From: Pontiella desulfatans
Lineage (GTDB): Bacteria > Verrucomicrobiota > Kiritimatiellia > Kiritimatiellales > Pontiellaceae
Assembly (NCBI RefSeq): GCF_900890425.1
Contig: NZ_CAAHFG010000001.1
Span: 2,232,001 to 2,296,000, forward strand
Direction of reading: 5' to 3'
Length of the DNA stretch: 64,000 nucleotides
The translations under genes were made by a program, and so were the position numbers. The notes below the pieces were generated by a model. It worked only from the letters and a program-made list of their open reading frames with translations, was not told the origin of the DNA and ran no database searches. Positions within the stretch are counted from its first letter, which is position 1, and each line of letters opens with the position of its first letter. Shown in pieces: positions 20,200-43,059 of this stretch.

Positions 20200-21315
20200 A
20201 TGACGACTACCCCGCATAGCGAAGACAAGATACTCGTTGCCATGGAGCTGAGCAACGACAAATGGCTGATGGCCTATTCCAACGGCGAGAAGATCCGCAG
20301 AAAATCGATAGACGCCCGGGACCGCTCCCGCTTTATGCAGGAGCTCAAGCTGGCGAAGGAAAAGCTGGGCATGGATCCCGGCGTGCCGGCGCTTTGCTGC
20401 TACGAGGCTGGACGCGACGGCTTCTGGATCTGTCGGTGGTTGAAGCAGGTCGGACTCGAATGCCTGGTGATAGATCCGGCCAGTATCGAGGTCAACCGTC
20501 GCAAGCGCCGGGCCAAGACCGACCGGCTGGATGCGGAGGCGATGGTGAGGCTGCTGGGCCGGTATGCGGGCGGGGACACGAAAATATGGGCTGTGGTGCG
20601 TGTTCCCTCGGAAAAGCAGGAAGATGAGTTGCGCCTTCATCGTGAAATGGAGCGTCTTAAAAAGGAACGAACGGGACATCTAAACCGGATTAAGGCGCTG
20701 TTTATTCTGCATGGAGTGAAACTCTCTGGAACGCTGACGAAGCTGTCGAAAACCTTGGATGGTTTACAGTGCTGGAACAAGAAGCCACTTGCGGAAGAAT
20801 TGAAAGAAGAGGTTCGCCGGGAACTCGAACGGCTGCGCCTGGTTGGCGAGCAGATAAAACTGCTGGAGAAAAACAAGGCGGAAGCGCTGAAGAACCCACG
20901 GACGAACGCGGAGCATCAGGCCCAGGACCTGATGCGCCTGCATGGAGTCGGAGAGGTCAGTGCATGGGTGCTGAGCAAAGAGTTTTTTGGCTGGCGGGAA
21001 TTCAAGAACCGCCGGGAGGTCGCCGCGCTGGCGGGGCTAACGCCGACGCCCTACAACAGCGGCGGGTCGAGTGTTGAACAAGGCATCAGCAAAGCCGGCA
21101 ACCGGAGGATCAGGCGGGTTATGATCGAGCTGGCATGGTCATGGCTTCGCTTCCAGCCTGATAGTGCGCTGACGAACTGGTTTGTTGACCGCTACGCCAA
21201 AGGTGGGAAAAGGGCGCGCCGGATCGGAATCGTTGCCGTTGCGAGGAAACTGCTTGTGGCGCTTTGGAAATATGTCGAGTTCGGGGAAGTGCCCGAAGGA
21301 GCCATCGTTAGATAA
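20200..21315 (+). CDS. IS110-family transposase (DEDD recombinase)
   Basis: 371 residues. The N-terminal RuvC-like DEDD domain shows LVAMELSNDKW, CCYEAGRDGFW and RRAKTDRLDAEAM. The C-terminal Transposase_20 domain has the helix-hairpin-helix LHGVGEVSAWVLSKEF and the serine region GLTPTPYNSGGSSVEQGISK. The first acidic residue is Glu rather than Asp, as in one subgroup known to me. It appears full length and undamaged, with AAGGAGA eight bases before ATG. IS110 enzymes insert using an element-encoded guide RNA. Confidence 0.92.
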   Translation: MTTTPHSEDKILVAMELSNDKWLMAYSNGEKIRRKSIDARDRSRFMQELKLAKEKLGMDPGVPALCCYEAGRDGFWICRWLKQVGLECLVIDPASIEVNRRKRRAKTDRLDAEAMVRLLGRYAGGDTKIWAVVRVPSEKQEDELRLHREMERLKKERTGHLNRIKALFILHGVKLSGTLTKLSKTLDGLQCWNKKPLAEELKEEVRRELERLRLVGEQIKLLEKNKAEALKNPRTNAEHQAQDLMRLHGVGEVSAWVLSKEFFGWREFKNRREVAALAGLTPTPYNSGGSSVEQGISKAGNRRIRRVMIELAWSWLRFQPDSALTNWFVDRYAKGGKRARRIGIVAVARKLLVALWKYVEFGEVPEGAIVR

Positions 21316-21979: not shown

Positions 21980-23038
21980 TTAATACCGCTCGTTTTCCGC
22001 CCTGCTTCCCTGCCTTAACGGGACAATGACGCAATGCCAATCCCCCGGGGCAGGAACAGCCAGGCAGAGAGCGCGAGGTTCTCCGTTTTCGATAAATATA
22101 CTTGGTCTTTGCAGGGGACGTTTCGTCTTGAGCATGGAGCCGTCGCTTCGCCGGAGTTCATTCCCCGTGATTTTGTAATGCTCTGCCGGCCGCCACTTGA
22201 ATCCATCGCGCGATTCAATAAGTCCGATGTACGTATGAGCATGAAAAACAGCAAAATATTTTTCCCGCTTCCGGTCGTACCAGATTGATGCATCCTCGGT
22301 ATCCATATCGTGGATGGCCGTTTCTTTCAGCATCTGGAAAGGGCCTGTTGGTGATTTGGATGTTGCCAGGCCCTGGACGCGCTGCGGCATGGGATCGGCA
22401 GGTTTCCTGGGCTTTATATCTCCTTTGAGAATCATAAGATACTTCCCGTCAGCCATCTCTGTGACATCGGGATTGACCGTGATATTATAGACAGGTTCAG
22501 CGGGCTCAATAATCGGTGCTTCTGATGGTGTGTAAGGACCAAGAATGGAATCCGACACGGCGACGCCAATTCGCTGGCTATCCCGAATGTGTCCTCGCGA
22601 GGAACCATTCCTGCTGGAGATGTAGTACAGGCAGTACTTGTCACCGAATCGTTTCAGCTTGGGATTATGGGCCATGAGTTCGTCCCAATGCCCGGGGCCT
22701 CGGCCTCTCAGCAAGACCTTCCGATGGTGGTAGGGGCCTTCCAGATTCTCCGACACGGCCAATGCAATTTCAGAAGATGTCAGCCAATTCCCTCCCTTTT
22801 TGGCCCATCTCGAATAGATCAGGTAGTACCGATCGTCGTCTCCCTTGATGATATGAGGCCCCCAGCAACTGTAATCATCCAGTCTAAAGACCCCCGCCGG
22901 CGTAAGCGGCTGAATCATGGAACCGATATCGAGACCCTCTGCTCCCGGATTCACAGTACCCGATTTGTGGCTCTCGCCGAACGCACAACCAGCCACCAGG
23001 CAACTTGTCGCCAGAATAGATGCATTCCGTAAAATCAT
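21980..23038 (-). CDS. GH43-like beta-propeller lipoprotein
   Basis: 352 residues; lipobox LVAGC (C18) predicts a lipid-anchored exported protein. Propeller blades are visible as CWGPHIIKGDDDRYYLIYS, HNPKLKRFGDKYCLYYIS, NPDVTEMADGKYLMILKGD and EDASIWYDRKREKYFAVF. This five-fold pattern is typical of GH43/GH32-like hydrolases; catalytic acids cannot be assigned with certainty, so a non-catalytic role is possible. AGGA precedes the ATG and the gene starts 12 bp after the upstream sulfatase, as the last gene of the operon. Confidence 0.7.
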   Translation of the reverse strand: MILRNASILATSCLVAGCAFGESHKSGTVNPGAEGLDIGSMIQPLTPAGVFRLDDYSCWGPHIIKGDDDRYYLIYSRWAKKGGNWLTSSEIALAVSENLEGPYHHRKVLLRGRGPGHWDELMAHNPKLKRFGDKYCLYYISSRNGSSRGHIRDSQRIGVAVSDSILGPYTPSEAPIIEPAEPVYNITVNPDVTEMADGKYLMILKGDIKPRKPADPMPQRVQGLATSKSPTGPFQMLKETAIHDMDTEDASIWYDRKREKYFAVFHAHTYIGLIESRDGFKWRPAEHYKITGNELRRSDGSMLKTKRPLQRPSIFIENGEPRALCLAVPAPGDWHCVIVPLRQGSRAENERY

Positions 23039-23050
23039 ACCTTTTTCCTA

Positions 23051-25039
23051 TTACTTCAACGATCCACGCTGAATCGTGAGGCCTTTGATTTCGCCTTGAA
23101 AAGGATTATGCGGAACATCTTCTGAAACCTTGTTTTTTCCTGCGCCGCCAATGATAAGTGGTTGGCCGGTCCGGCCCTTGAAGGGCTGGGGTAAAGGGCA
23201 GCTTTCGATGAGCTTGCCGTCCACTTTGAAGATGACACGGTTGTAGTCGATCGAAGCCTGGATGTTAGTCCATTTGCCGATAACGGATTCCGGGGTGTCG
23301 ATGACGGTGCGCAACGCGATCCACGTTTTGCAGAGTACGGCGATACCCGGACGGCCGTCTTGCACGAAAATCTTGAAGCCGTAGGCGGGGCTGGATTGCG
23401 ATGCGATAACGCCGTCGGATTCGGGCTTAACGTCCATATCGATGCGCCACGGCCAGGAGGAAGGATCGGCCTCTTCGTTGTAGGGAATTTTGACGAGGTC
23501 TTTTTCCGTACCGCTGAACGTGGCGGTATTCTTGATGATTTCAAGCTTCAGGTCTTTGGCGCCACGGCAGCGCGGCAGGTTTTTCGGGAATACGTCCGGT
23601 CGCCAACCGGCCTCGGCTTTCTTTTCGGCCATGCGCTTTTTCATCTCCTGATGCAATTCGGCGTACTCGGGGTTGACCGCAAGGTTGTTCATTTCGTTGG
23701 GATCGGCTTTCAGGTCGTAGAGTTCGTCGAGGTCGTTGATTTCCGGATACTCGATCAGCTTGTACCGTTCGGTGCGCACGGCGGTCATGGTGGGGATGGA
23801 ATGGACGAGGTCGACCCAGTATTCATAGAAAACGCTGTCGCGCCAATCGGCGGATTCTCCTTCAAAAAGCGGGCGCATACTTTTTCCCTGCATAAAGCCG
23901 GGGATATCGACACCGGCATAGTCGAGCACGGTCGGGGCAAAGTCGAGATTGGAGACGAGTTCGGTGATCGTTGTATTTTTCATGATATGGCCGGGATAGG
24001 CCGCTATCATCGGAATGCGCATGCTTTCCTCCACAGCGAGTCGCTTGTCCCACCGACGATGCTCCATATGGAGGTAACCGTTGTCGCTGGTGAATATGAT
24101 GAGGGTGTTATCCAGGGTGCCGCGTTCGTGCAGTGCTTTGAGCACGCGTCCGACGCCATCATCAACCGCTGCGACACAGCGCAGTTGCTTCGTGTAGTAA
24201 TTACGTACAACCCACGGCTCCGAGGGGATCGCATCCGGCAATTGATCTTCTTCCACATCCCGCGTGCGGTAATTCCAGCGCGTATCGCGTATGCGCTGAC
24301 GCCGCAGCCAGGCTGGCTTGCCTTTCAGGTCGTGCGACCAGCTTTCAGGTTCGAGATCCCTGGTTCCGGCACCGAATGCATGCTTGTGACGCGGGGCGGG
24401 CTTGAAGGGTTCGTGCACCGCCTTGTGCGAAAGCATGCAGAAATAGGGCTGGTCTTGGGGCTGCTTCTTGATGAACTCGATCGCCTTGTCGGTCAGGATA
24501 TCGGTGGTGTATCCCGTCCACTGTTCCTTTTTGCCGTCCACATTGACTTCAACGTCGTTGTATTCCCCCTGCCCTTCAAAACTGATCCAGTGGTCGAAAT
24601 ACGGGCGCGGTTCGGCGGAATGCCCCATGTGCCATTTTCCAATCATCGCGGTTTTGTATCCGGCCACCTGCAGGTATTTGGTAAGCGGCGGAGTGACGGC
24701 GGGATTATATTCCGAGGTTGCATTGTCGATGACGCCATGCCGGTTGGCATAGGTGCCGGTCATGAAGGTTGCGCGCGACGGGCAACAGATCGACGTAGAG
24801 CAGAAGGCATTTTCCAATGACGCCCCGCCTTCGCGGAGTTTATCAATGTTCGGCGTTTTTACGTAGGGATGTCCCTTGTAGGAAAGAGCGTCCCAACGCA
24901 GGTCGTCGAGCAGGATAAACAGAATATCGGGTTGCGGCGTCTCGGTCGACCGGTTTCCTTTGGGCGACTGCGGGGCGGCATGAACCGCGTTTCCCAGCAG
25001 AAAACAAAACACAATAGCTATATATCCTATCTTCTTCAT
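23051..25039 (-). CDS. Secreted sulfatase with C-terminal LamG-like domain
   Basis: Start set to ATG 25039 (GGAG nine bases upstream; the codon just before is TTG). Signal peptide MKKIGYIAIV to AVHA; LLDDLRWD metal site; CCPSR with C85 catalytic; GKWHMGH; FTSDNGYLHMEH. The sulfatase ends near residue 490 and is followed by about 165 residues of beta-sandwich sequence (WRIDMDVKPESDGVIAS, FKVDGKLIESCPLPQPF). These resemble a laminin-G/concanavalin carbohydrate-binding fold. Together with the next gene it closes the glucan operon. Confidence 0.88.
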   Translation of the reverse strand: MKKIGYIAIVFCFLLGNAVHAAPQSPKGNRSTETPQPDILFILLDDLRWDALSYKGHPYVKTPNIDKLREGGASLENAFCSTSICCPSRATFMTGTYANRHGVIDNATSEYNPAVTPPLTKYLQVAGYKTAMIGKWHMGHSAEPRPYFDHWISFEGQGEYNDVEVNVDGKKEQWTGYTTDILTDKAIEFIKKQPQDQPYFCMLSHKAVHEPFKPAPRHKHAFGAGTRDLEPESWSHDLKGKPAWLRRQRIRDTRWNYRTRDVEEDQLPDAIPSEPWVVRNYYTKQLRCVAAVDDGVGRVLKALHERGTLDNTLIIFTSDNGYLHMEHRRWDKRLAVEESMRIPMIAAYPGHIMKNTTITELVSNLDFAPTVLDYAGVDIPGFMQGKSMRPLFEGESADWRDSVFYEYWVDLVHSIPTMTAVRTERYKLIEYPEINDLDELYDLKADPNEMNNLAVNPEYAELHQEMKKRMAEKKAEAGWRPDVFPKNLPRCRGAKDLKLEIIKNTATFSGTEKDLVKIPYNEEADPSSWPWRIDMDVKPESDGVIASQSSPAYGFKIFVQDGRPGIAVLCKTWIALRTVIDTPESVIGKWTNIQASIDYNRVIFKVDGKLIESCPLPQPFKGRTGQPLIIGGAGKNKVSEDVPHNPFQGEIKGLTIQRGSLK

Positions 25040-25110
25040 CAATTGTTTCTCCGTTCACTTTGCATACGGCAAATTCCGGTTAGATTAATCCGAGTCCCTT
25101 TATGATGTTC

Positions 25111-25483
25111 TTATTTGCCCTGCTCTACGGGCTCGGGAACATACGTTTTGCTATAGGACTGAAGCTGCTTACTCAACGTAGAGACCACAGAAGCGTATTC
25201 AGGATTCTCTGCCAGATTGGTGACTTCCGCCGGGTCACACTCATGATTGTAGAGCTCTTTGCCCGCAGCGCCTTCATTCCACTCGGTGTAGCGCCATTTC
25301 TCGGTCCGTATCGAGTAGCCCTGCTGATCTGGACGGTGATGTACCTGGGTCAACGCCGGATGATCCCAGGCGGCAGCAGGATTCCGCAGCAAGGGGCGCA
25401 GCGAGAAACAGCACGTTCAAAGGGGCCGCCGTCGAACCGCCGGCAATGAATCCCAGAACAATAAACGCAAAAAATCTCTTCAT
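25111..25483 (-). pseudogene. Sulfatase remnant with large internal deletion
   Basis: The 5' end encodes a signal peptide and the first strand of a sulfatase (MKRFFAFIVLGFIAGG, APLNVLFLA). At about 25396-25402 this jumps, with a frame change, into a typical C-terminal segment (PLLRNPAAAWDHPALT, IRTEKWRYTEWN, ELYNHECDPAEVTNLAENP). Roughly 350-400 codons including the catalytic cysteine are absent. It starts 11 bp after the symporter gene, so an ancestral operon gene was lost in place. Confidence 0.85.
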
Positions 25484-25494
25484 CCGTATACCTT

Positions 25495-26928
25495 TCATCT
25501 TTTCTCTTCGGAAACTTTACCTCGGCGACGTTCCAGTTCGCCCCGAATCTCATGGGCTTTGCCCTCGGTTATCGTATAGGTTGCGATGATCCCGAGCGCG
25601 ATGGCCGAGGTAAGGATCGGTATCCCGACATCAAACACCCTTAACAGAAACAGGGTCTTGTCCGCCTGTCCGGCTCCCAGGGCGACATCGAAACCGGACA
25701 CCTTAAGCAATACGCCGGTCAGCAGCCCGGCCAGCGCCATGCCGACTTTGACCATCCACCAGTAGATAGCACCGAAAACGCCCTCGCGGCGCTGATGGGT
25801 TTGCAGTTCGTCATAATCGCAAACATCCGAGATCATCGACCCCATCAAAGTGAACAAGGCCCCCGTTCCAAATGCCACCAACGGCGCGGAAAAGAGCAAC
25901 CAATATGGATGGTCCGGGTTATACCCCACCCACTTGATGGCATACCCCACGATCGACAGGGAGATGGTGATCAGGAAGGTTTTGCGTTTGCCGATGCGCG
26001 TCGCGATCCAGCCGGTCAACGGGATGACGCACAAGGTAAAGATCGCGGTCAGGCTTCCGAAAGTTCCCATCAGCTTGCCGGCCTGCGAGTCGTTGCCGCT
26101 GAACAAATAGTAGATCATGACATAAAGCGAGAACGACATGCCGAGCTGGAAGCCGTTGAAAACGAGGAAGGTTGCTCCGCACAGTTTGACGAACGGGCCG
26201 CACTTGAAGGTGGTTCCAATGCCCTTCAGAAATTCGGCCATGTTTTCGAGCAAGCCTTCGGCGGCCTTGGGAGGCACGGTCTGTTTTTCCCGGCAGAAGA
26301 TCGCCGGAACAATACCCAGTATGGCGACGATGACGCCCACCCACACTGCCAGCACGCGGGCCCCATGCACGGTATCGCGGAACAGACTGCTGGCCATGAT
26401 GGCATAAAACCAAGGAACGCCGAGCCAGGCGAGCTGACCAACCGTGTTGGCGAAAGCATGCAGCCGTGTACGTTCATGATAGTCCGGTGTCATTTCATAG
26501 CCAAAAGCCACAAAGGGTGTCGCATAAACAGTGTAGGCTAGGAAAAACAGGATTGAAGCGACCATAAAGGTCCAGAAATAGAAGGGCTGGGAGTGTCCTT
26601 CCGGAAGTTGCCACATCAGGGCAAAGATCAACCCGGCGATGAGGGCCCCGGTGAAAATAAACGGTCTGCGCCGCCCCCATCGGGAGCGGGTGTTGTCGGA
26701 GATATAGCCCAGCATCGGGTCCGATACGGCATCGAATATCCGGGGAATCGCCCCGAGAAGGCCGACCAGCACCGGATCCATGCCCAAGCCGAGATTCAGG
26801 ATCACCACCATGGCCGGCAGGGCGGCCGCCTGCAGGTTGTTAACCAGCATGCCAACGGCATAGGCCGTTTTCTGCCTCAAGGAAATGCGATCTTCTGCTG
26901 CGGTTTTGAAATGTGTTTCGGCACTCAT
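25495..26928 (-). CDS. GPH-family sugar:cation symporter (MFS)
   Basis: 477 residues with about 12 hydrophobic segments. The family signature DAVSDPMLGYISDNTRSRWG is followed by RRRPFI, with a second conserved loop near VCDYDELQTHQRREG. GPH symporters import glycosides, pentosides and hexuronides. Located between beta-glucan hydrolases and upstream of a cytoplasmic phosphorylase-containing operon, it probably imports beta-1,3-gluco-oligosaccharides (inference). Confidence 0.92.
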   Translation of the reverse strand: MSAETHFKTAAEDRISLRQKTAYAVGMLVNNLQAAALPAMVVILNLGLGMDPVLVGLLGAIPRIFDAVSDPMLGYISDNTRSRWGRRRPFIFTGALIAGLIFALMWQLPEGHSQPFYFWTFMVASILFFLAYTVYATPFVAFGYEMTPDYHERTRLHAFANTVGQLAWLGVPWFYAIMASSLFRDTVHGARVLAVWVGVIVAILGIVPAIFCREKQTVPPKAAEGLLENMAEFLKGIGTTFKCGPFVKLCGATFLVFNGFQLGMSFSLYVMIYYLFSGNDSQAGKLMGTFGSLTAIFTLCVIPLTGWIATRIGKRKTFLITISLSIVGYAIKWVGYNPDHPYWLLFSAPLVAFGTGALFTLMGSMISDVCDYDELQTHQRREGVFGAIYWWMVKVGMALAGLLTGVLLKVSGFDVALGAGQADKTLFLLRVFDVGIPILTSAIALGIIATYTITEGKAHEIRGELERRRGKVSEEKR

Positions 26929-26949
26929 GAGCGAGATTCCCTAGTTCAA

Positions 26950-27957
26950 CTAATCTTGGCGCAATGCATGATACCAGTCTTTGACGACATCAAATGCCAA
27001 CTTTTTATTCCGGTCAATATCCACAATGCCCCAGTATTCCTCATCGGCAACCCCATCATAAGGCACGCCGCTGCTTACGGGTGGCGATCCATGCGGATCA
27101 TGGGTGCTCGGGTCATCAGCTTTCCACCAGCCATCCAAAAAGGAAAACAGCGCAACGCCCGAGCAAACGTCCTGTTCCTCGAAAACGGCAGCCAGAATAT
27201 TCCGCGTGGCATCGGCCTGCGCCTTTTGGTTTTCCCCCTGCCCATATCCATGCGCCGCGATATTCATGTAGCTGTCGGCACCAGCCTCGGACAGATACAT
27301 CGGTTTGGAACTGATGGCCGCCCATTCTGCAAACAGATCTTCAGGGTTATCCCACCGGTAGATGTTCATTCCCCACACATCCACATCCGGGCAGGTAGAC
27401 AGCGCCAACTCATCCGGCAATTCGCCGTGCGCTGTCGCCACCGGATGAGACGCATCATTCTGGTGAATAAGTACGGCGGCGTTGTTCAACGCCTCGTACC
27501 ATACCCTGATATCGCCATCATCAAACCATTCCGGGTGATAGTTATACTCGTTGCCCATCTCCCACATCAAGATGGCGGGGTGGTTCTTGTAGGTGTTGAC
27601 ATAGTCGATGAACGATCCGGAAAGGATGTCGCGGTTGTATTCGAATCCTATGATGATTTTCAGCCCCGAAGCATAGATTTCATCCAGCACGGCTTTGCTG
27701 TCTATTGGGGAATAGGCCCGAATGGTATTGATCCCGGCCTCCTTCATTAAGCCGAGATCTTCGGACAACCTTCCAAAATTCCGCTCGCGACTGCCCTTCG
27801 GCACAGGGTGGTAGCAAATACCCTTGATGACATAGGGGGTGTCATCAACCAGTATACGACGACCCGACACCTTTACGCTCTCTACGTCAACGCCTGCCAT
27901 ACAGGAGCAAAGCATCCCCGTTACAAGTATACACATCGCGATTTTTAACATTGTCAT
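26950..27957 (-). CDS. Lipoprotein glycoside hydrolase, TIM barrel (GH2-C/GH5-like)
   Basis: Start set to ATG 27957 (AAGGA six bases upstream). A lipobox-like MLCSC (C17/C19) predicts membrane anchoring. The barrel carries acid/base Glu137 in WEMGNEYNY and nucleophile Glu224 in YLSEAGADSY, the clan GH-A pattern. KGICYHPVPKGS and NTIRAYSP resemble glucan-active GH2/GH5/GH72-like enzymes. It sits between the GH16 laminarinase and the symporter, so an exo-acting or transglycosylating beta-glucanase is likely. The family assignment is not certain. Confidence 0.78.
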   Translation of the reverse strand: MTMLKIAMCILVTGMLCSCMAGVDVESVKVSGRRILVDDTPYVIKGICYHPVPKGSRERNFGRLSEDLGLMKEAGINTIRAYSPIDSKAVLDEIYASGLKIIIGFEYNRDILSGSFIDYVNTYKNHPAILMWEMGNEYNYHPEWFDDGDIRVWYEALNNAAVLIHQNDASHPVATAHGELPDELALSTCPDVDVWGMNIYRWDNPEDLFAEWAAISSKPMYLSEAGADSYMNIAAHGYGQGENQKAQADATRNILAAVFEEQDVCSGVALFSFLDGWWKADDPSTHDPHGSPPVSSGVPYDGVADEEYWGIVDIDRNKKLAFDVVKDWYHALRQD

Positions 27958-27996
27958 CTTAATCCTTGCAGATTTCCACGAATTCAAGACGTGACC

Positions 27997-28845
27997 TTAA
28001 CTTTTGCCCTGCTGGTAAACCCGCACCCAGTCAACATACATATATTGTGGAAAAACGCTTCTTTCATCCGGACGAAAGTCAGGATCTTTTCCCCCCACAG
28101 CAATATTCAACAAGATGAAAAACTCCTGATGAAATTCTCCGAACTCATCCGCAGTGATCGGTTGGGTGGCGTACAGCTGACCATCAACCATCCAGCGAAT
28201 CTGTTGCTCATCCCACTCGATTTCAAATACATGAAAGGCATCGGCAAACCTGCCGGCTGGCAATTTAAACGTCTGAGGATGTATCCACGCGTGTTTCGAA
28301 TTGCGGTCTGCATAATGGATGGTGGCTTCAACCGCGCCATCGTCTTTTGAACCCCAGAGTTCCATTATATCGATCTCACCGCAAAACGGCCAACGTGTAT
28401 CGCCGCCATGACGTTTACCGTTGATACCCACCATCCAAAACGCCGGCCATATCCCTTGTCCATACGGAAGTTGTATGCGCGCGGCCACCTTGCCATAGCG
28501 CCAAGACTGCTTTTGCGCAGTTTCCAGGCGCGCCGAGGTGTATCTGTTCTCGCCGTGGCTTTCTCCTTCATGGATCGCCTTTATCACTAGGCAGCCGTTG
28601 TCGATATAAGCATTGCTTTCATCGTCCGTATAGCGCTGCCATTCTGCGTTAAAGCGTCCGGCCTTTGCAACCCGCCTGCTCCAGTTGGCGTCATTCAGCT
28701 CAGCTTTATCAAATTCGTCGGCCCAAACCAGCTGCCATTGCTCTCCCGCCTGATAACTATCGTCGGCGAGGTTCGCAGCCGGATAGCGTACGGATGCCTG
28801 GCAGCCGGTCACTGCAACGGCCAACAGCCACATGAGCCGCTTCAT
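27997..28845 (-). CDS. GH16 endo-beta-1,3-glucanase (laminarinase-like) lipoprotein
   Basis: 282 residues; lipobox VTGC with C14. The GH16 catalytic signature GEIDIMELWG provides nucleophile E157, assisting D159 and acid/base E162. WADEFDKAELNDANW and YGKVAARIQLPYGQGIWPAF are typical of laminarinases. The start codon overlaps the stop of the phosphorylase gene by one base (TAATG). It would cut laminarin-type beta-1,3-glucan at the cell surface. Confidence 0.93.
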   Translation of the reverse strand: MKRLMWLLAVAVTGCQASVRYPAANLADDSYQAGEQWQLVWADEFDKAELNDANWSRRVAKAGRFNAEWQRYTDDESNAYIDNGCLVIKAIHEGESHGENRYTSARLETAQKQSWRYGKVAARIQLPYGQGIWPAFWMVGINGKRHGGDTRWPFCGEIDIMELWGSKDDGAVEATIHYADRNSKHAWIHPQTFKLPAGRFADAFHVFEIEWDEQQIRWMVDGQLYATQPITADEFGEFHQEFFILLNIAVGGKDPDFRPDERSVFPQYMYVDWVRVYQQGKS

Positions 28846-31800
28846 TATACCCGGACCTCAACATTGAGCTTTTCAATGGCTCCGGTGCGGGTGAAGATTT
28901 CCGAGCTTACAGATTGGTTAAGCACAAGACCATCCACTTCAATCGTCTCGCCCGTGGCGCGCTTTACGCAGATACGATCCGTATCACCCTCACGAATTTC
29001 AACGGGGACGGTGCAAAACGTGAAGCAAACATCGCTCTCGCTTGAAAGGAATGGATCGAAGCCCAGACAGCCGTTTTCGACGCGGACGCCCAGCTCTGTC
29101 AGACGGGAGATAAAGTCCTCCTTCACTTGGCCCGTAAGGCCGGGCTGCTGAGCACCCATCATGGACGGCGTATGCGAATAGGGATCGGTCGGGAACGCCC
29201 CCTGTTCCTGCACGCTCTTGTAGGCGCCGATGCCCTGCCGGATGTCATAGTAACAATCCAGCAGAGGCTCGATATGGGTGCTTCCTTTGGCCCTGATGCA
29301 GGTTTCCTGAACAGCAAGCAGCAGTTTCGAAACCATGTGCCAGTAGATCGAGCCCAGCCCTTCGTATTTAAAGAATGTTCCGGAGCGGCCGGTGAACGAC
29401 TGATGGTCAAAAACCTGTTCATAGGTTTCGAGCCATTTATCGCGGTCCTTTCCTGACATCCCTGCCTTCTTAAGCTCCTCATCCAGCATGGCCGCATTGC
29501 GGAATTCCGGATTGAAATGCAGCACACCGTTGCTGTCGAGTTTGGCAATGCCCGGACAGGCCTCTTCGGCATCCGGGATGCAGTTCTTTTCCATGAAGCG
29601 CTGCAGCGTGCGATTGGGATAGAGGATATAGCTATGCTGGTCTTCCCGGTAGAGCGAGCTGGTCCGCAGCGCCTTGAGCACATCGAGGCTTTCCTCAGCA
29701 TCCAGTTTACCGGAAGAGAGCACGGCCACCTGCCCTTCCAGCATTTCGTAGAGATGGCGAACCGATATCCCGCCATCCGCTTCCACCTTCATCAGGTTGT
29801 AGGCATGGTACAGCCCGTCATCGCGCCGATTGACCGCAATGGTCTGATCCATATAGGCCAGCGAAAGCTTCATGAATGCGACAATATCCGCAACCGGCAA
29901 GCTCGTTTTTTGTCCCGAGAACCCGTCATTGTATATCGCTTTGCGGTAGTGGTCGCCAGCGCCGCCCAAAAGATCGAGCACCTCGCGGCGCGGCGCGGCG
30001 GAAAAGCCGTTCGGCAGCAGGCCGGCGTGCCGCTGCAAGGCGGCAAACATGGCACGGAACTGCTGTTCCACTTCGGTCGAAACCGCAAAATCTTCCTGCC
30101 CGCAACCGTCGAAAAGTTTGATGCAGAAATCGAGATAGCGGCGCATGTAGCAAAGCGTCACCATCGAAACCCCGTATCCGACCAGCGCATTGTTGGCGTC
30201 GTTCCATTCCGGCCGCTGGGTATTCATCCAGATACCGGCTTCCGGAATAAAGTTCGAGAGCTTGGCCAGCAAAGGCACAAGCAGTTTCTCGGTCAGGTTG
30301 ACGCGGTAGATGCCATCTCCCTTTAAATAAACCAGCTTGCCGTCGGAGCCGATGGTTTTACTCAGCGCCAGAATCGCGGCATGGGCATCATGGTCGAACT
30401 CGATGCTTTCGCACGGGTCGGCCAGCAGCGAATCGTAGGATTTTATGCTGTACGGCACATTCGCATAGACATAGATTTCCTTAGAGAGCATCTCCTTCAG
30501 GTTGCCGGGATGGTACGCCTCGGATTGTTCGAGCAGCTTGAGCAGGTAGATGATCTGGTGGTCGCCCCAGTAGCCGATATAGGACCACGGATCATTGGGG
30601 TCATGCACTTCCCAGTCCATGCCGTCGCGTGTGATGCGGTAGGGATTGTAGCCGTCGGCCGTGGATGCGTTGACAAACTTGCTGATTATGCTTTCGAAAA
30701 ATCCGGGGTAGGAAATGCCCAGCGCTTCCCAGTTCTGGAAAATATCGCGCCAGTTGCCCTCGTAGGACAGCTTCTTCGAACCGTCCGGGTTGCGCGTTTC
30801 GATCGAAAACTGGTTCCACGGACGGCTTGGATCGCCGTGGCGACGGCTGAAGGTCAGCGGCATATATTCCAGATAGAGCCGCTCCATCTCGGGATGGCCC
30901 AGCCCCCGGAAAAAAGTGAGTCCTTCCTGATATTGGAAGGTATCCGGCAACGCGTCGAGCGTCAGCTTTTCCGCAACGAGTCCGTTGGCCGAAGAGATGA
31001 AGTCAAGCAAGTCGGTTTTGCTGACCGAGTAGCCGTTGTCGAAAATGCCGCCGCGCATGACGTTGAAGAGCGTATTGGCAAAATGGCGCGCGGTCTGAAG
31101 CGGGTTTCCGCCCGTCTGGATGCCGTCGGCCGCGGCAACGATCGAGCACAGGTTTTCCGTGCCCTGCTCCACATCGGCCAGCAGCTCGTCCGCATCGGGC
31201 CGTTTAAGCTCAAGCGCGGCAATATCGCAGGCATCCTGATCGACCTCGGCCACGATAACCCATTCCTTGCTGTCGCTGGCGGGCAGTTCAACTTGCGACT
31301 GCACAAAATAGGCTCCGCGCACGCCGCGCATATCCGTCTCCTGCTCGATGGTTTCTCCTCGGCGGAAACGTTCCAGTTGGCCCGTGCTGAGCAAGCAGAC
31401 CGGCTGGTCCAGCCCCATCGACCAAACGGTGTTGGCGGTGAGCGACTCACTGGGTTCGGCGCGGTCGACCGGCACCGAACTGAGCGCATAGATGCCGATG
31501 CCGCTCTCAGGCAGCAGTTCGCTCTTTTTGTAGGCATCGACCAGCGTGCTATATACATTCTGCATATTGCGATCAACGTTCGCCGGCAGCAGGTTTTGCA
31601 GGCCATCGACAAAGCGGCAGCGGACCGGCGCCCCGCCAAGATTCGCCAGCGTGGCCTTGCGCACAAAGCCGAAGCGGTCACTCGACATCCACACATAGCT
31701 GAACGAAAGCTTTAACGTGCGGTTGACCTCCTCGAAGACCAGCTTATTTCCCGGCACATTCTTATAGATGTTGCGTTCGACGTCATAGACCCCGTCATAG

Positions 31801-32144
31801 CGGCTGGAAAACGGCTCCCACAGGTTTTCGCCCGCCTCGCCTTCCACCAGGACGACGGTCTTGGAGCCGGTCTGTTCCGCCGCGTCCTGCACCTGGTCCT
31901 CGGTATAGTATGGGAACAGCGCACTTTCGGGATTGCGCCGACCGCAGGTAAGCGCACCGTTGCTGGAGATGAACATCCAGTGGTTGGAATCGCTGACGAC
32001 GCTGATGAAAAACGGAGCCATCCGGTCGTGGTTCCGGATACGGTAGAACTGCTCCCCATCGAGTTCGGTGTATCCACCATTCACTTTTGCGTCGGACGAG
32101 TACAACTCACAGTCACCCACCCATACTTTTTTCTTCTCGGTCAT
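28845..32144 (-). CDS. Beta-glucan phosphorylase of the GH94/GH149/GH161 type
   Basis: 1,099 residues from ATG 32144; an in-frame TTG at 32165 is less likely. There is no signal peptide, so it is cytoplasmic. Residues 20-330 form a beta-sandwich (GGYTELDGEQFYRIRNHDRM) and an (alpha/alpha)6 barrel follows with YEGNWRDIFQNWEALG holding the probable catalytic Asp, and WSYIGYWGDHQIIYLL. Length over 1,000 residues and these motifs fit beta-1,3-oligoglucan phosphorylases (GH149 or GH161) better than the 800-residue GH94 enzymes. With the GH16 and the symporter it implies phosphorolysis of imported laminari-oligosaccharides to glucose 1-phosphate. Confidence 0.8.
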   Translation of the reverse strand: MTEKKKVWVGDCELYSSDAKVNGGYTELDGEQFYRIRNHDRMAPFFISVVSDSNHWMFISSNGALTCGRRNPESALFPYYTEDQVQDAAEQTGSKTVVLVEGEAGENLWEPFSSRYDGVYDVERNIYKNVPGNKLVFEEVNRTLKLSFSYVWMSSDRFGFVRKATLANLGGAPVRCRFVDGLQNLLPANVDRNMQNVYSTLVDAYKKSELLPESGIGIYALSSVPVDRAEPSESLTANTVWSMGLDQPVCLLSTGQLERFRRGETIEQETDMRGVRGAYFVQSQVELPASDSKEWVIVAEVDQDACDIAALELKRPDADELLADVEQGTENLCSIVAAADGIQTGGNPLQTARHFANTLFNVMRGGIFDNGYSVSKTDLLDFISSANGLVAEKLTLDALPDTFQYQEGLTFFRGLGHPEMERLYLEYMPLTFSRRHGDPSRPWNQFSIETRNPDGSKKLSYEGNWRDIFQNWEALGISYPGFFESIISKFVNASTADGYNPYRITRDGMDWEVHDPNDPWSYIGYWGDHQIIYLLKLLEQSEAYHPGNLKEMLSKEIYVYANVPYSIKSYDSLLADPCESIEFDHDAHAAILALSKTIGSDGKLVYLKGDGIYRVNLTEKLLVPLLAKLSNFIPEAGIWMNTQRPEWNDANNALVGYGVSMVTLCYMRRYLDFCIKLFDGCGQEDFAVSTEVEQQFRAMFAALQRHAGLLPNGFSAAPRREVLDLLGGAGDHYRKAIYNDGFSGQKTSLPVADIVAFMKLSLAYMDQTIAVNRRDDGLYHAYNLMKVEADGGISVRHLYEMLEGQVAVLSSGKLDAEESLDVLKALRTSSLYREDQHSYILYPNRTLQRFMEKNCIPDAEEACPGIAKLDSNGVLHFNPEFRNAAMLDEELKKAGMSGKDRDKWLETYEQVFDHQSFTGRSGTFFKYEGLGSIYWHMVSKLLLAVQETCIRAKGSTHIEPLLDCYYDIRQGIGAYKSVQEQGAFPTDPYSHTPSMMGAQQPGLTGQVKEDFISRLTELGVRVENGCLGFDPFLSSESDVCFTFCTVPVEIREGDTDRICVKRATGETIEVDGLVLNQSVSSEIFTRTGAIEKLNVEVRV

Positions 32145-32154
32145 GTTTTTCCCA

Positions 32155-32226
32155 CTAACTCTCAAATATGATCGACGACCTCAATACTCCCGCAGCAGCC
32201 CAAACCACATCTCTTTTGCTTTTCAT
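32155..32226 (-). CDS. Possible 23-residue leader peptide
   Basis: ATG at 32226 with AAGGA nine bases upstream opens a short frame (MKSKRDVVWAAAGVLRSSII, three more residues) that stops 10 bp before the phosphorylase start. The close stop-to-start spacing could couple translation. It may be chance; no attenuator structure is evident. Confidence 0.3.
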   Translation of the reverse strand: MKSKRDVVWAAAGVLRSSIIFES

Positions 32227-32469: not shown

Positions 32470-34986
32470 CTACTGCCATGCTCGCAGGCGCCCAAAGAGA
32501 GCTCCGCCAGGCGCGTGTTCGTCCGAAATGCCAACGCGAACACGGTCAACTCCGGTTCCGAAGAAGTCATCATCAACCTCGATCGTTGTTCCGCTGAGGC
32601 CGTTCGTCACAAGAGTCCAACCCCCGTACCTGAGGCCCGTTGCAAACTCTACGCCCGCTTCGACGGAGCCTATGGAGCCGTCCCAGCGCCGGTAGATGAT
32701 AACAAGTTCGCCCGGGATCTCATCGTTGTAAGTCGGCTCCAATCCGGAGGCATCCGCCATTCCGTTTGTCGCACCGTAAAGGTAAGCCAGTCCGTTGGCG
32801 ACCCCATCGCCATTCGCGTCGTCCCCAAAGGCGGCATCCGCAACATCCAGGTCGGCAGCCCACTTTTCATAAGTAAAGGCGGGCGGTTCATCCAGCACGG
32901 CGATTTTACCATTCACGGCCAACAAGTTATCCCAGTACAGCCCTGGCGCCGGCTGGGCAGGTTCGATGCTCCAGTCGCCCCCTCCGGAGAGCGCCTGATC
33001 GAAAACGGCGAATTCCTGCCCCGCCGCATAGGGAATTCCGATGTTTTCCACGCTCAGCGTGCCGGCATTGCTCACGCTGTATGTCCCGGTCAGACTCACC
33101 CAGGCGGAAGCCGGGAGGGCTCCGGGATCAACCGCGATATCCACATCAAGCCAGCCGTCACCGTACACGGATCCGGAATTAGAGATCGGACCTCTCGGAG
33201 CGAGGGTCAGGACTTTGCCGTTCAGGTTAACGGACATTGCCATGCTCAACTGTGACTGAGACGAAACCTGCCACACCTGGTTGGACTGCAACACAATCTC
33301 TCCACCCCCGCCGATGGTCAGGCTATGGGTTGTATTTGAAAGATTAATCCCTCCTTCGTAAATGTTCAGCGTACCGGTGATGGGATCCATGGTGACATCC
33401 CGAGTCAGGCTCTCTTCCAGACGGATCTGGTTCATGTCTTTGGTTCCGCTGAGGGACGGATTGTTGTCTCCCGTGAAGGCAGAACTAAAGGCCACCACAG
33501 TGATCGGAGAGTTGACCTGCGAGCCGTCCCAGTTCCCTGATCTGTACCATTCGGCACCGTCGCTCGCACCCCCAGTCCACTGAACGCTTACTAAGCCATC
33601 CACCGAAACCGCGACGTCCTTGCTCAGGGTCGCGGTTCCGCCCTTCATGTCCGATACGACAACTTCAACCGTGTAGATCCCGGGTTCATCCCAGGTTTTC
33701 GTCAAGACGTTCGAACTGGTGTTGTAAGGTTCGAGCTTGTCGCTGGTCTCCCACATGCAGGCCACTTCGTCGCCATCCGGATCGTTTGGCGCAACGGTGA
33801 TGGACAGGGGCACGCCGGGCTTGCAGGAGAGCGGAACATCCCATGTCGGCGACGGAGCCGCATTGCCGCTAAAGTCGCCCCGGTTGATCCGCACATCGAT
33901 GTATTCGTTGGGCGCATCGCCGCCCCGCCCGAGGTTGGTGATGTAAACCAGTCCGACATCGTCGGCATAGGTTTCTCCCGGCTGCAGAGCCTGGTCATCG
34001 AATGCTTTCGATGTCCCCGGATGCATATCGAGGCTGACCGTGCTCCCGGTTCTGTCGCTTGGATCGTTGACATCTCCGCGATCCCAATAGAAAACCAGGC
34101 CTTGACGCATGGCATGATTCATTCCATCGCCCTTGTTGTTATCGGGATTATTTACGTATTGGTTCTCCCAGAGACGCGAGCGGAATCCGATCCAGAAATC
34201 CGTGCTGGTGCCTCTATCCTTCCGCCTTACCTGCAGCGCCCGCTTTGTGAGATTGGTGCTGATGTCAGGATCGTCGAACGAGTAGAGGCGCTTGGTATAA
34301 CTGCCGTCACTTGTGATACTGTAATAATCGGTGATCCAGCCGCGCGTTATCTTGTCAAACGGCTCCGGATCGATCGAGCCCGTCTTCATGAAATGCCAGG
34401 CATCCGGATCGGTCACAGTACCCGATAGCGGATTTTTCGTGGCGTCCGGCTGCATCCGCTGTTGATGCGACCAAGCAAAGGAGTGCCCGAATTCATGCAT
34501 CATGGCACCGCCGTTGCCTTTCAGCCAGACGCGGCTGCCGCCGACAGTCGACTTGTCTCCAGAGGAATGGGAGCCGTGGAAGAAGACGACAATACCATAG
34601 TTGGCCGGATCGTACCCCTGAGCCCCGGCCTTGTTCTCAGCGGCGGTGGCGAGCGTGGAGCCGGTATAGGAGCCCTTATTGTTCGGTAACGTGACCTCCA
34701 CCGTGTCATATTGGCTGAACTTCAGCTCGCGGTAAGAGAACCGCTCGAAATTACCCTTCGCCAGCTCGATCTTGTTGATAATCGTGCCAAGGCTGGGAGC
34801 GTCGTTGGAATCGGCGAATTTCACGCGGATGCCCAGCACTTTCACCCACCCCTTGCTTGGGGCAGCCTCGGCAGGTTCCATCATCGCACAAAGGAGGAGC
34901 ATTAACGACGCGGTCAGCCACCGGCGATGCGTGAACCGGAAAGCGCCGGCCAAAGTCCTGATTGCCAATATTGCCATTTTTTTCAT
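32470..34986 (-). CDS. Secreted metzincin-type metalloprotease with PKD-like domain
   Basis: Start set to ATG 34986 (AAGGA eight bases upstream), giving 838 residues. After a long signal peptide (ends EPAEA) comes a protease domain with zinc motif HEFGHSFAWSH (H164, E165, H168, H174) and a Met-turn near M200 (AWHFMKTG). A PKD-like Ig domain follows (PNDPDGDEVACMWETS to VEVVVSDMKGGTATL), then beta-helix-like sequence and a tail with ANGDGVANGLAYLYG. The HExGHxxxxxH pattern resembles M11/M12-type metzincins. A paralogue lies at 48665. The promoter carries the CCCGGG palindrome. Confidence 0.85.
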   Translation of the reverse strand: MKKMAILAIRTLAGAFRFTHRRWLTASLMLLLCAMMEPAEAAPSKGWVKVLGIRVKFADSNDAPSLGTIINKIELAKGNFERFSYRELKFSQYDTVEVTLPNNKGSYTGSTLATAAENKAGAQGYDPANYGIVVFFHGSHSSGDKSTVGGSRVWLKGNGGAMMHEFGHSFAWSHQQRMQPDATKNPLSGTVTDPDAWHFMKTGSIDPEPFDKITRGWITDYYSITSDGSYTKRLYSFDDPDISTNLTKRALQVRRKDRGTSTDFWIGFRSRLWENQYVNNPDNNKGDGMNHAMRQGLVFYWDRGDVNDPSDRTGSTVSLDMHPGTSKAFDDQALQPGETYADDVGLVYITNLGRGGDAPNEYIDVRINRGDFSGNAAPSPTWDVPLSCKPGVPLSITVAPNDPDGDEVACMWETSDKLEPYNTSSNVLTKTWDEPGIYTVEVVVSDMKGGTATLSKDVAVSVDGLVSVQWTGGASDGAEWYRSGNWDGSQVNSPITVVAFSSAFTGDNNPSLSGTKDMNQIRLEESLTRDVTMDPITGTLNIYEGGINLSNTTHSLTIGGGGEIVLQSNQVWQVSSQSQLSMAMSVNLNGKVLTLAPRGPISNSGSVYGDGWLDVDIAVDPGALPASAWVSLTGTYSVSNAGTLSVENIGIPYAAGQEFAVFDQALSGGGDWSIEPAQPAPGLYWDNLLAVNGKIAVLDEPPAFTYEKWAADLDVADAAFGDDANGDGVANGLAYLYGATNGMADASGLEPTYNDEIPGELVIIYRRWDGSIGSVEAGVEFATGLRYGGWTLVTNGLSGTTIEVDDDFFGTGVDRVRVGISDEHAPGGALFGRLRAWQ

Positions 34987-35449
34987 TTTTAATTCCTTTC
35001 TATGACTAATTGAGTTTGAACATCTGTTTTTCAAAAACCTTCGGTTCATCACAAGAAATACAGCTCGTTATGCGCGAATACATTTATTCTGGAACCACAT
35101 CTCGCCCAAGCGAAGCCTATTTAGATCGACGCAAAACATTCTACCCAACTATCCCGGGTTATCAAGCTTTGAGTTTGTCTTTTTTTTCCCTGCAATCGTT
35201 CCCTTTTCGGCGGATTTCCTTGGTTTCTTCCATTCCCACTTCTTGCCATTATGCGTTCCTTAGAGATCTATCCCGAGTCTCTTCGACAACGTATTTCCGA
35301 GTTTAGATTTTAAATTCCCCGGGACTCCCTGGCCATTTTGGCTACGGAGCCTGTGCCTCCGGCGGTCTGCTCGATCCGTCCAGGATTCGTTTGAAGCTTC
35401 CGCGGCCCGCCGGGAACTTTCTCCCAGCTACATGTCATGCCTGACGTGC
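34987..35449. other. Non-coding stretch upstream of the metzincin gene
   Basis: No gene supported. It holds the metzincin promoter/operator (listed separately, 35138-35165). A long pyrimidine-rich stretch lies upstream of it (about 35175-35280). Confidence 0.5.
35138..35165 (-). promoter_or_regulatory. Metzincin promoter with CCCGGG palindrome in the spacer
   Basis: On the minus strand: TTGATA (35165-35160), 16-bp spacer, TAGAAT (35143-35138). The spacer begins ACCCGGGATAG, so the palindrome CTATCCCGGGTTAT (35149-35162) overlaps the end of the -35 and the spacer. The start codon is about 150 bp downstream. Confidence 0.65.
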
Positions 35450-35510: not shown

Positions 35511-36332
35511 TTAGTTCTGCAAGCGACGACGGAAGAACAGGAGCACGCCCCCCGCCACACCAATCAATCCCAAGGCGGCCGGTTCCGGGATAACCGTTAC
35601 AGAATCCAATTTGATTCTTGTGCTGTCTCCTCCGGTGTCAGTTCCGGTTCTATAACCTGTTCCGACACTGACATCTCCAGTGAAAAATGTGTTTTTAGTC
35701 GAACCAGTGCCGTCGTTAAAGTTGGCAGTTGAATTATGCCCGGCGCCAGTACCCGACCAATCTATGTTCCAGTTACCTTGCCCGCTGTTACCATCTGGAT
35801 TAATGCTAAGGCTAAGTGTGAAGTTTTTGCTGAGGTCAAGGTTTGTGTTGGTCCAATCCTTCAAGAGATATTCTTTAGTACCGCCAGCTTTACCAATTAT
35901 CTTATACTTATGCTCGCCTTGAGCATCTTTGTAATCATTGTCCACTATAACCATTATACCGCCCGTCATGCCAGGAGTCGTCAGGGCACCGTTCCCTAGG
36001 AAAAATGACGCGTAATTGGCTTTATTTAAATAACCAATCCCCTTCGTTACAAACGTAGCCGTCACACCCTCACCCGCCAGAGCGTCGAATTTATCCTTCG
36101 AATGGATACCGACGCTTTTCGCTGCGGTTGCGGTGTCATAGATATCAAGCTGACCGCTGGATTCCACATATTTCAAATTTGTACCCGTATCAAACTTGTA
36201 AAAACCGGTACCATCTCCCCATTGGTTTGATCCAACGTCACCATCATTAAAATTATCGCTGATGATCGACGCTCCGGCGGTAAGTACCACCGCATTGATC
36301 ACGGCCATAAGGATCATCATTTTTTTATTCAT
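35511..36332 (-). CDS. PEP-CTERM sorted secreted protein
   Basis: Start at 36332 has GGAG eight bases upstream, giving 273 residues. Signal peptide MNKKMMILMAVINAVVLTAG, then a beta-rich body (IISDNFNDGDVGSNQWGDG, GGIMVIVDNDYKDAQGEHKY) that resembles a concanavalin/LamG-type fold. It ends with IPEPAALGLIGVAGG, a hydrophobic helix and FFRRRLQN, which is the tripartite PEP-CTERM signal processed by exosortase. Body function unknown; glycan binding is plausible. It has its own promoter/operator and terminator, so it is monocistronic. Confidence 0.85.
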   Translation of the reverse strand: MNKKMMILMAVINAVVLTAGASIISDNFNDGDVGSNQWGDGTGFYKFDTGTNLKYVESSGQLDIYDTATAAKSVGIHSKDKFDALAGEGVTATFVTKGIGYLNKANYASFFLGNGALTTPGMTGGIMVIVDNDYKDAQGEHKYKIIGKAGGTKEYLLKDWTNTNLDLSKNFTLSLSINPDGNSGQGNWNIDWSGTGAGHNSTANFNDGTGSTKNTFFTGDVSVGTGYRTGTDTGGDSTRIKLDSVTVIPEPAALGLIGVAGGVLLFFRRRLQN

Positions 36333-36417
36333 ACCACTTCTCCTTTTCTCTCTATTTTTTGCTACACACAAAAAACCAGCACACCATCGCGCTAGTCTCT
36401 TTCTTGATTGTGGTAGC

Positions 36418-36445
36418 ACCATACCGTACTATCCCGGGATAGCAA
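36418..36445 (-). promoter_or_regulatory. PEP-CTERM gene promoter with perfect CTATCCCGGGATAG palindrome
   Basis: On the minus strand TTGCTA (36445-36440), 16-bp spacer beginning TCCCGGGATAG, TATGGT (36423-36418). The palindrome (36429-36442) is perfect over 14 bp with a central CG step. Register and spacer length equal those of the metzincin promoter. Confidence 0.65.
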
Positions 36446-37089: not shown

Positions 37090-38535
37090 TTAATTTGTGT
37101 ACATGAACTTCGATAGTGTTACAGCCCCGGGATAAGGGTCATCTGTTTCGCTGATCCATTGAAGGATTCGATCAAAGAGTTGTTGCTTGATGGTCGCATG
37201 GGCCGGGTCATCTTTAAGATTGTTTAACTCATACGGATCTGCCACGAGGTCATAGAGATCATTCACTGAATTAATCGTTAGTGGTGCGGTGCTATCGCGA
37301 AGAATCAATTTATAACGATCAGTCACAACAGCTCTCCAAGGCTTGTTGTGAACGCAGTAGATCGAGTCGATCTCCGGCATGGAGGAACCGCGTGCGGAAT
37401 TTGCCTTATTAACGCCGGCACAGGTTTTAGGAACCGGAAGTCCGCATAAGCCCAACAACGTCGGCATGACATCCACTCCACCTATCGGAACCTCAGACAC
37501 ATGTCCGGGTTTGGTTGTTCCCGGCAATCGCATAATGAGAGGAACGCGCACAGACTCCTCTTCCGGCTTCGATTTGTCGGTCAGATTATGGGAGTAATGC
37601 ATATCCCCATGATCGGAGGTAAAGACCACGAGTGTATTATCTTTCAGCCCTTCGTTTTCTAAAAACTGCATCAGTTGCCCAAACTGATCATCAAGGGCCA
37701 TGCATTGGGCAAAGTAGAGCGCCAGATTGGATGCGCCTGTATTTCCAGATACATTGGATCGGCGATCTGCCGCGGTAACCGTATAGGTTTTATATGCGGA
37801 AGGGACTTCATTGTAGGGGGTGTGCGGAGGCCCCCATGAGAGATAGCACAACCACGGCCGCGTTCGATGAGCCCGAATAAAATCTTCGGCCAATTCCCGC
37901 TGAAACTCTGGTTCATACCGATTCAGCACCTCCGTCATCACACGGCCATCATCATCGAACATGGCCACATCGCTCGGATTGGTTGTTATATACTGATGAC
38001 CTCGATTAAACCCTTGATAGGTTTGGAATCCGCGTCGTCTCCATTCCCGAGCACTGTCACCCGGAATCCATCCTGTATTCCCTTCTGGATCGATGATGTC
38101 ATAACGCCCCTCTCCATCATAATGCGTCTTGCCGGTATAGTGCGTAGCATAGCCCGCTTGCCGGAAAATTTCAGCCAGACACCGGTTTCCAGGCGGGAGC
38201 ATCCGATTATTCTGCATGGCACCATGCTGATGGGCATAACGGCCGGTGACCAGCGTTGCGCGCTCCGGTGTGCATACCGGTGTCGTGGAATAGGATCGCC
38301 TCCATCGCGTTCCCTCCGAGGCAAACTGATCAATGCAGGGGGTTTTTACCAGCGCATCGCCATTATCCGCATGACTGAATGCGCTGTATCGCCACTGATC
38401 CGTCAAAACAAACAACACATTGGGTTTCTGCACATTGCTGGCCGCATACAATTTATTGATCGTAAGCGGAAGAGCGAGTGCTCCCAGATTACTGAGAAAT
38501 GATCGGCGCCTTAGTGTCAGTGTATTCGCGTTCAT
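37090..38535 (-). CDS. Tat-exported sulfatase with variant CTPER motif
   Basis: 481 residues. The N-terminus LRRRSFLSNLGALALPL is a twin-arginine signal, unlike the Sec signals of the other sulfatases here. Metal site LTDQWRYSA; catalytic motif CTPER with C88, where the usual Ser/Thr is Glu; GKTHYDGEG and FTSDHGDMHYSH complete the core. The substitution keeps Cys, Pro and Arg, which are needed for formylglycine formation. It overlaps the LRR gene by ATGA, so both are translated from one mRNA. Confidence 0.87.
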   Translation of the reverse strand: MNANTLTLRRRSFLSNLGALALPLTINKLYAASNVQKPNVLFVLTDQWRYSAFSHADNGDALVKTPCIDQFASEGTRWRRSYSTTPVCTPERATLVTGRYAHQHGAMQNNRMLPPGNRCLAEIFRQAGYATHYTGKTHYDGEGRYDIIDPEGNTGWIPGDSAREWRRRGFQTYQGFNRGHQYITTNPSDVAMFDDDGRVMTEVLNRYEPEFQRELAEDFIRAHRTRPWLCYLSWGPPHTPYNEVPSAYKTYTVTAADRRSNVSGNTGASNLALYFAQCMALDDQFGQLMQFLENEGLKDNTLVVFTSDHGDMHYSHNLTDKSKPEEESVRVPLIMRLPGTTKPGHVSEVPIGGVDVMPTLLGLCGLPVPKTCAGVNKANSARGSSMPEIDSIYCVHNKPWRAVVTDRYKLILRDSTAPLTINSVNDLYDLVADPYELNNLKDDPAHATIKQQLFDRILQWISETDDPYPGAVTLSKFMYTN

Positions 38536-39938: not shown

Positions 39939-39989
39939 TCAGCATCTCCTTTCGGATCAGTGACCCCACGAAAATATCATTTGCTGTGC

Positions 39990-40027: not shown

Positions 40028-40080
40028 ATCGGTTCAGCCCATTTTGAAAAGCTTGCGGATATCTCCAGCGTACGCCACCC

Positions 40081-43031: not shown

Positions 43032-43059
43032 AACCCACCCAATCGGTTGCACAAACCTT

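Follow-up and report, generated by a model that had tools for sequence, protein, structure and literature searches.

Sulfatases in and beside a GH149 beta-1,3-glucan phosphorylase locus of Pontiella desulfatans: gene content, recurrence and candidate substrates

The probable operon and its upstream neighbourhood

The window, that is, the whole stretch of 64,000 nucleotides of Pontiella desulfatans DNA that was analysed and whose host we take to be strain F1, carries on its minus strand between positions 21980 and 32165 a run of co-directional genes (Table 1). In the order of transcription, they encode a GH149 phosphorylase, a GH16 enzyme, a GH158/GH2-like glycosidase, a GPH symporter, the remnant of a sulfatase, an intact sulfatase (hereafter SULF) and a GH43/GH117-like protein, so that every gene named by an earlier note on this DNA is present. 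According to the coordinates, the first two genes overlap by 1 nt and the following gaps are 9, 21, about 11, about 70 and 12 nt long. A consensus scan found no minus-strand terminator-like site within these gaps, and the genes likely constitute one operon that would be co-transcribed.

Table 1. Positions of the operon genes, the upstream cluster and neighbouring features in the window.
Feature	Position	Strand	Remarks
Alpha-L-fucosidase near the upstream cluster	46454-48364		
Sulfatase S43	43060..44418	-	PF00884
GH128-like endo-beta-1,3-glucanase (Glyco_hydro_cc)	41559..43052	-	PF11790 106 bits, cut-off 21; PDB 6uaq E 6e-21
Sulfatase	40081..41526	-	PF00884
Leucine-rich-repeat protein between sulfatases	38532..39938	-	PF13855
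Sulfatase	37090..38535	-	PF00884
PEP-CTERM-like protein	35511..36422	-	between operon and upstream cluster
PKD protein	32470..35052	-	between operon and upstream cluster
GH149 beta-1,3-glucan phosphorylase	28845..32165	-	1106 aa; signal peptide not apparent by eye
GH16 endo-beta-1,3-glucanase-like	27997..28845	-	PF00722; lipoprotein-like start by eye
GH158/GH2-C-like clan-A glycosidase	26950..27987	-	PF02836; member of conserved core
GPH/MFS_2 sugar:cation symporter	25495..26928	-	PF13347
Sulfatase remnant	about 25111..25483	-	six-frame reading; BLAST of pieces searched apart
SULF, intact S1 sulfatase (S1_11-like) with C-terminal LamG	23051..25042	-	PF00884, SGSH_C, LamG
GH43/GH117-like five-bladed propeller glycosidase	21980..23038	-	PF04616; fold nearest GH117
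IS110-family transposase, marks downstream edge	20200..21315	+	NF033542 196.6 bits, cut-off 140

Over its whole length the phosphorylase reached 1525 bits with the equivalog profile NF058639, whose cut-off is 1150. Comparison with the PDB retrieved the GH149 enzyme 6hq6 at E = 0 and a GH161 chain at just 1.6e-10, ruling out GH94 and GH161. The family is thus settled as GH149, and phosphorolysis of beta-1,3-gluco-oligosaccharides is predicted from it. The earlier note had proposed to decide between GH94, GH149 and GH161 by profile search; with the enzyme placed in a beta-1,3 family, its glucan interpretation was not overturned by a phosphorylase of other linkage specificity. Alignment and motif reading showed the WND catalytic loop, the RD sugar-phosphate motif and YWH, with the phosphate histidine, all to be present, motifs whose roles are described for Pro_7066 (PMC6771811). 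No second GH149 gene accompanies this one in the genome (8,658,305 bases in 6 contigs). The top solved relatives of the GH16 protein are GH16/laminarinase enzymes (E 6e-53 and 1e-52), and the EIDIME motif lies at position 157. For the neighbouring glycosidase, the top PDB chain was the GH158 enzyme 9oro (E 1.9e-8, over part of the protein), and the glutamates of the GNE and S/T-E motifs are kept in all eight aligned sequences. The symporter scored 193 bits with TIGR00792 (gph), under the 231-bit cut-off of that profile. Profile and PDB matches confirm the combination of a GH149/161-like phosphorylase, a GH16 enzyme, a second glycosidase and a GPH importer that had been read from the sequence by the earlier note. 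GH158-like proteins are also encoded next to GH149 in a number of distant genomes and may represent a widespread beta-1,3-glucanase group; in genome G032 (locus L060, 9261-13500) three such genes stand in tandem between GH149 and GPH.

SULF matched PF00884 with 202 bits and carries the CxPSR maturation motif as CCPSR at residue 86. Among the solved chains closest to it are 5g2v and 7lha (the latter with E 4e-71), and one solved relative, titled in the PDB as a GlcNAc-6-sulfate enzyme, presumably belongs to S1_11. The chain 7lha is BuS1_11, and S1_11 is described as including exo-6-sulfo-L-galactose sulfatases for porphyran use (PMC9096561). By kinship, SULF is S1_11-like and a putative exo 6-O-sulfatase. 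In the remnant, a signal-peptide start and a sulfatase C-terminus are read in different frames and the middle is gone, in line with the one intact and one deleted sulfatase that had been noted before. The remnant lies exactly at the junction of the core operon and the pair of SULF and the GH43-like gene. Its assignment to one sulfatase subfamily was abandoned, its C-terminus resembling several sulfatases about equally. Elsewhere in the window's genome (L093, 8713-12235), a SULF relative of LamG-tailed length is followed directly by the sulfatase nearest to the remnant (46% across 57 residues). The remnant may thus have come into the operon together with SULF.

The protein encoded by the last gene of the operon scored 42.6 bits with the Pfam GH43 profile against a cut-off of 32.2, with no single stretch passing alone. 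Thus the earlier designation as GH43-like stands by the Pfam cut-off, but the nearest solved folds are those of GH117: the nine best structural matches of its model (pLDDT 73) all belong to this family (Z 26-27.5), the next entry reaching 25.8 and the next families 25-26. GH117 is described as the family of neoagarobiose hydrolases (PMC7356697). A scan of the genome contigs gave three relatives of the gene, none near GH149 within the sequence covered, and the gene was therefore dropped as a key to the substrate. Neither the relative in L079 nor that in L080 has a SULF-like sulfatase as its immediate neighbour; the nearest S1 gene within the sequence covered lies at distances of about 1.5 kb and 7.8 kb. 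Elsewhere on the minus strand of the window, a single protein (12071-15070) combines sulfatase, GH43 and 3-keto-disaccharide-hydrolase-like domains, and a reverse-transcriptase-like protein (16662-17987, PF00078) is divided between two neighbouring ORFs and resembles a broken gene.

On the same strand, 9 kb upstream of the operon, a GH128-like gene lies between sulfatases in a cluster (37090-44418) of three sulfatases, a leucine-rich-repeat protein and the GH128-like enzyme. Between this cluster and the operon, the consensus scan placed a terminator-like site (35490-35457). While the genes given by the earlier note are correct, the relevant cluster probably reaches further upstream, to about 44418. 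The chain 6uaq and the like PDB chains matched by the GH128-like enzyme are ones that we take to be GH128. This family is counted among the beta-1,3-glucanase families (PMC10637969). The genes that were scanned between 21980 and 44418 included no recognisable porphyranase or agarase, and the other glycosidases there indicate beta-1,3-glucan. We compared the GH128 gene and S43 with 171 loci. All counterparts of the former were found in the GH149 locus of G300 (L089, overlapping L115), which has two PF11790 genes (49-54%), and a portion of its N-terminal region has additional matches elsewhere in that stretch. The best match of S43 was in this locus as well (65%, the next best being 40%). Since the 171 loci were chosen for containing GH149, GH43-like or sulfatase genes, this recurrence describes these loci and is not a genome-wide statement.

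Sulfatases and GH149 in other genomes

Of the GH149 loci that have sufficient flank, the closest are those of G159, G050 and G032; they contain GH149 (70-78%), the GH158-like protein (61-68%) and the GPH symporter (81-88% identity) and lack a sulfatase. All three genes also occur in G289, and G298 has GH149 and the GH158-like gene; the contigs in question are short and carry no sulfatase. No GH149 was found in the 7.4-Mb genome G308. GH149, the GH158-like glycosidase and GPH thus form the conserved core in near relatives. Searches of the 28 other family genomes gave, at the thresholds used, no close counterpart of either SULF or the GH43-like gene. As the near relatives are without a sulfatase and these two genes without close family counterparts, the sulfatases and the GH43-like gene are additions, and sulfatases as long-standing parts of the operon were ruled out. 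A search of the phylum for SULF with a strict threshold and the three best candidates per genome gave one other gene in 387 genomes; the relatives in G315 and G343 described below were not among its results.

Across 43 GH149 loci, a sulfatase lay within 10 kb in 13 and was absent in 19, while 11 had too short a flank to be scored. G159 was set to absent by hand, L057 continuing its contig, and four genomes with weak GH149 matches (G148, G162, G229 and G238) were not scored. A quick GH149 tree with SH-aLRT support and midpoint root was built from 42 of the 43 loci, with the fragment G291 left out, the second contig pieces of G311 and G333 unused and G108 represented by its longest piece. On this tree, sulfatase linkage needs four changes, at least four being forced by the well-supported branches, and none of 500 shuffles gave so low a number. 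One branch (support 99) is linked in all of its ten rows, nine from a different family, f33, and one from G300, which is a member of the window's genus with a GH149 in a different clade from the window's. The GH149 gene of G108 is split into three frames (L111, 12861-16354) and is intact in the near-identical G327, which points to either a sequencing error or decay.

The f33 loci bring a sulfatase related to SULF next to the phosphorylase. In G315, the gene for a relative of 682 residues (56% over 677 positions, the LamG part among them) is co-directional with GH149 and immediately upstream of it, and the GH149 proteins of G315 and the window share 41% identity. Nine more f33 genomes show a related sulfatase adjoining GH149 and, close by, a GH16 gene (in G333 on another contig piece). 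The typical layout is a SULF-related sulfatase (about 38-41% where full length) adjacent to and divergent from GH149, followed by GH16, and several loci on long enough contigs add further sulfatases, a second GH16, GPH and a TonB-dependent receptor. One f33 sulfatase that was tested had the same leading solved relatives as SULF, and the nearest solved relative of one f33 GH16 was a laminarinase (1.5e-64). Of the 32 SULF-like genes in the 17 f33 genomes, 15 are no more than 10 kb from GH149 and 9 no more than 500 bp, where random placement would give 0.46 and 0.086; as genome sizes were rounded and the genomes are related, these counts describe a conserved linkage, not independent trials. The 32 genes derive from 33 rows, the second segment of one G343 gene having been dropped. 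In the sulfatase blocks of f33, the TonB-dependent receptor is repeatedly accompanied by a secreted-looking protein of about 300 residues (L075 17149-18138, L126 18123-19055, L164 6206-7138 and L169 612-1517); two copies were scanned and had no Pfam match, and it could be a glycan-binding protein or a new enzyme.

The nearest relative of SULF itself is in G343 (67% over the catalytic part), on an 18-kb contig without GH149 that carries other sulfatases and, by eye, a TonB-dependent-receptor-like gene; the GH149 of G343 has no sulfatase nearby. G343 and G315 group with SULF in the SULF tree (support 100), and linked and unlinked states are hence mixed in this group. The added sulfatases look more than random.

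Candidate substrates and rival explanations

For strain F1, published work reports growth with simple sugars and with sulfated polysaccharides (PMC7356697, PMC6388578), fucoidan among the latter (PMC7356697). Growth on laminarin is reported as absent (PMC7356697, PMC6388578), and the strain nevertheless has laminarin-use genes (PMC7356697). The earlier description of the operon as energy-saving laminarin use is thus not supported in that form. The other suggestion of the earlier note, either a sulfated beta-glucan as target or two merged pathways, fared better: both alternatives are live and the comparative evidence tilts to a sulfated beta-1,3-glucan. We consider it about an even chance that the operon and the upstream GH128/sulfatase cluster together handle such a glucan, or a glycan with such stretches. 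In favour of this reading are the intact GH149, the distribution of linkage on the GH149 tree, the SULF relative in G315, the f33 adjacency, the recurrence of the GH128-S43 pair at the GH149 locus of G300 and the growth profile of F1. Against it stand the closest GH149 loci, which lack sulfatases, SULF and the GH43-like gene without close family counterparts, the unlinked SULF relative in G343, the abundance of sulfatase genes in F1 and the relatedness of the f33 rows. The fucosidase genes close to the cluster in the window and in G001 likewise suggest that something other than glucose may be part of the glycan. Furthermore, the characterised S1_11 enzymes act on L-galactose-6-sulfate (PMC9096561) or GlcNAc-6-sulfate, not on glucose-6-sulfate, and the literature that we searched yielded neither a natural sulfated beta-1,3-glucan or sulfated laminarin nor a locus for its use. 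The idea is chemically real, in that a natural sulfated (1,3;1,4)-beta-glucan is described from Kappaphycus alvarezii after Lechat 2000 (PMC7997180, PMC5460208). That glucan has about 8% 1,3-linkages, however, with sulfate on 1,4-linked residues (PMC7997180, PMC5460208), and is a poor match for GH149.

The alternative next in rank, which we hold to be unlikely, is a merger in which a sulfatase/GH117-like pair from the breakdown of a red-algal galactan (agar or porphyran) was spliced to the 3' end of the inherited core of GH149, GH158-like and GPH, the two halves serving different polysaccharides of the same food. It stays alive because the fold of the GH43-like protein is nearest to GH117 and S1_11 includes porphyran sulfatases (PMC9096561), and the core kept without sulfatase in near relatives, the lack of close family counterparts of both added genes and the deleted sulfatase exactly at the junction all agree with it. 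GH117 enzymes keep company with S1_11 sulfatase in porphyran loci. The window resembles the porphyran loci described with an S1_11 sulfatase (PMC9096561) in pairing an S1_11-like sulfatase with a GH117-like propeller, and departs from them in having no recognised porphyranase or agarase among the scanned genes from 21980 to 44418. Moreover, the 56% relative of SULF adjoins GH149 in G315, on a contig piece where no GH117-like gene was seen, the relatives of the GH43-like gene in L079 and L080 lack an immediate SULF-like neighbour, and a merger leaves unexplained why a GH128-sulfatase pair stands beside two different GH149 lineages. Less probable still is an ordinary laminarin-oligosaccharide operon in a sulfatase-rich genome, with SULF as a passenger and the remnant as decay. 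With 521 sulfatases reported in F1, or 8.0% of its genes (PMC6388578), chance alone should place a sulfatase within 10 kb, and nearness in the window alone was therefore rejected as evidence; one of the two operon sulfatases is already broken, an IS110 copy lies next door and 19 of the 32 scorable GH149 loci are without a sulfatase within 10 kb. This account is at odds, though, with the GH149 branch on which every locus is linked, with the recurrence of linkage, by the same S1 group, in genomes of 1.2-2.1 Mb that have far fewer sulfatases (38 matches in G001 and 27 in G108), and with the reported failure of F1 to use laminarin. Least probable of all, and by our estimate very improbable, is a sulfated fucose-bearing heteroglycan containing beta-1,3-glucose, such as a fucoidan-associated glucan, on which fucosidases, sulfatases and glucan enzymes would cooperate. 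Alpha-L-fucosidase genes lie near the cluster in the window and, together with GH3, on the sulfatase strand of G001, and the reported growth of F1 on fucoidan is in keeping with this target. Yet no fucosidase was seen in the other joint f33 loci read, in which some genes were family-scanned, and nearness of a fucosidase means little because fucosidases are among the commonest glycosidase genes of F1 (PMC7356697).

A proposed pathway and its meaning

If a sulfated beta-1,3-glucan is the target, the GH16, GH128 and GH158-like enzymes would cut its chain outside the cell or in the periplasm, and the S1 sulfatases, SULF among them, would strip sulfate that would otherwise block the non-reducing end. 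The GPH symporter would then take up short glucans, from which a cytoplasmic GH149 would release glucose 1-phosphate. Polysaccharide utilisation loci with phosphorolysis are known, and we found no description of a sulfatase-bearing GH149 version in the literature searched. The known GH149 loci (Pro_7066, EgP1) share with the window the enzyme family, the catalytic motifs and a glucan-cutting enzyme and importer alongside, whereas "sulfatase" occurs 0 times in the main text of PMC6484121 and the window operon has an intact and a broken one. Likewise, the window has the laminarinase-like GH16, GH158-like enzyme, phosphorylase and transporter that recall laminarin utilisation loci (GH16/GH17/GH3/GH149), but it adds sulfatases and the GH128/sulfatase cluster, in a strain reported not to grow on laminarin.

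We tentatively propose, at rather less than even confidence, that a class of loci in Verrucomicrobiota/Kiritimatiellae, marked by the sulfatase-linked GH149 branch, consumes sulfated beta-1,3-glucan and that SULF is a glucose-6-sulfate sulfatase. Laminarin is treated as the sea's neutral beta-1,3-glucan, beside whose enzymes sulfatases are unexpected. If a sulfated beta-1,3-glucan with its own loci exists, part of the annotated laminarin use would be something else. In addition, a glucose-6-sulfate sulfatase specificity, which is not among the reported S1_11 specificities that we found (PMC9096561), would become testable, and the finding would explain how a strain can be annotated for laminarin use and yet be reported without growth on laminarin.
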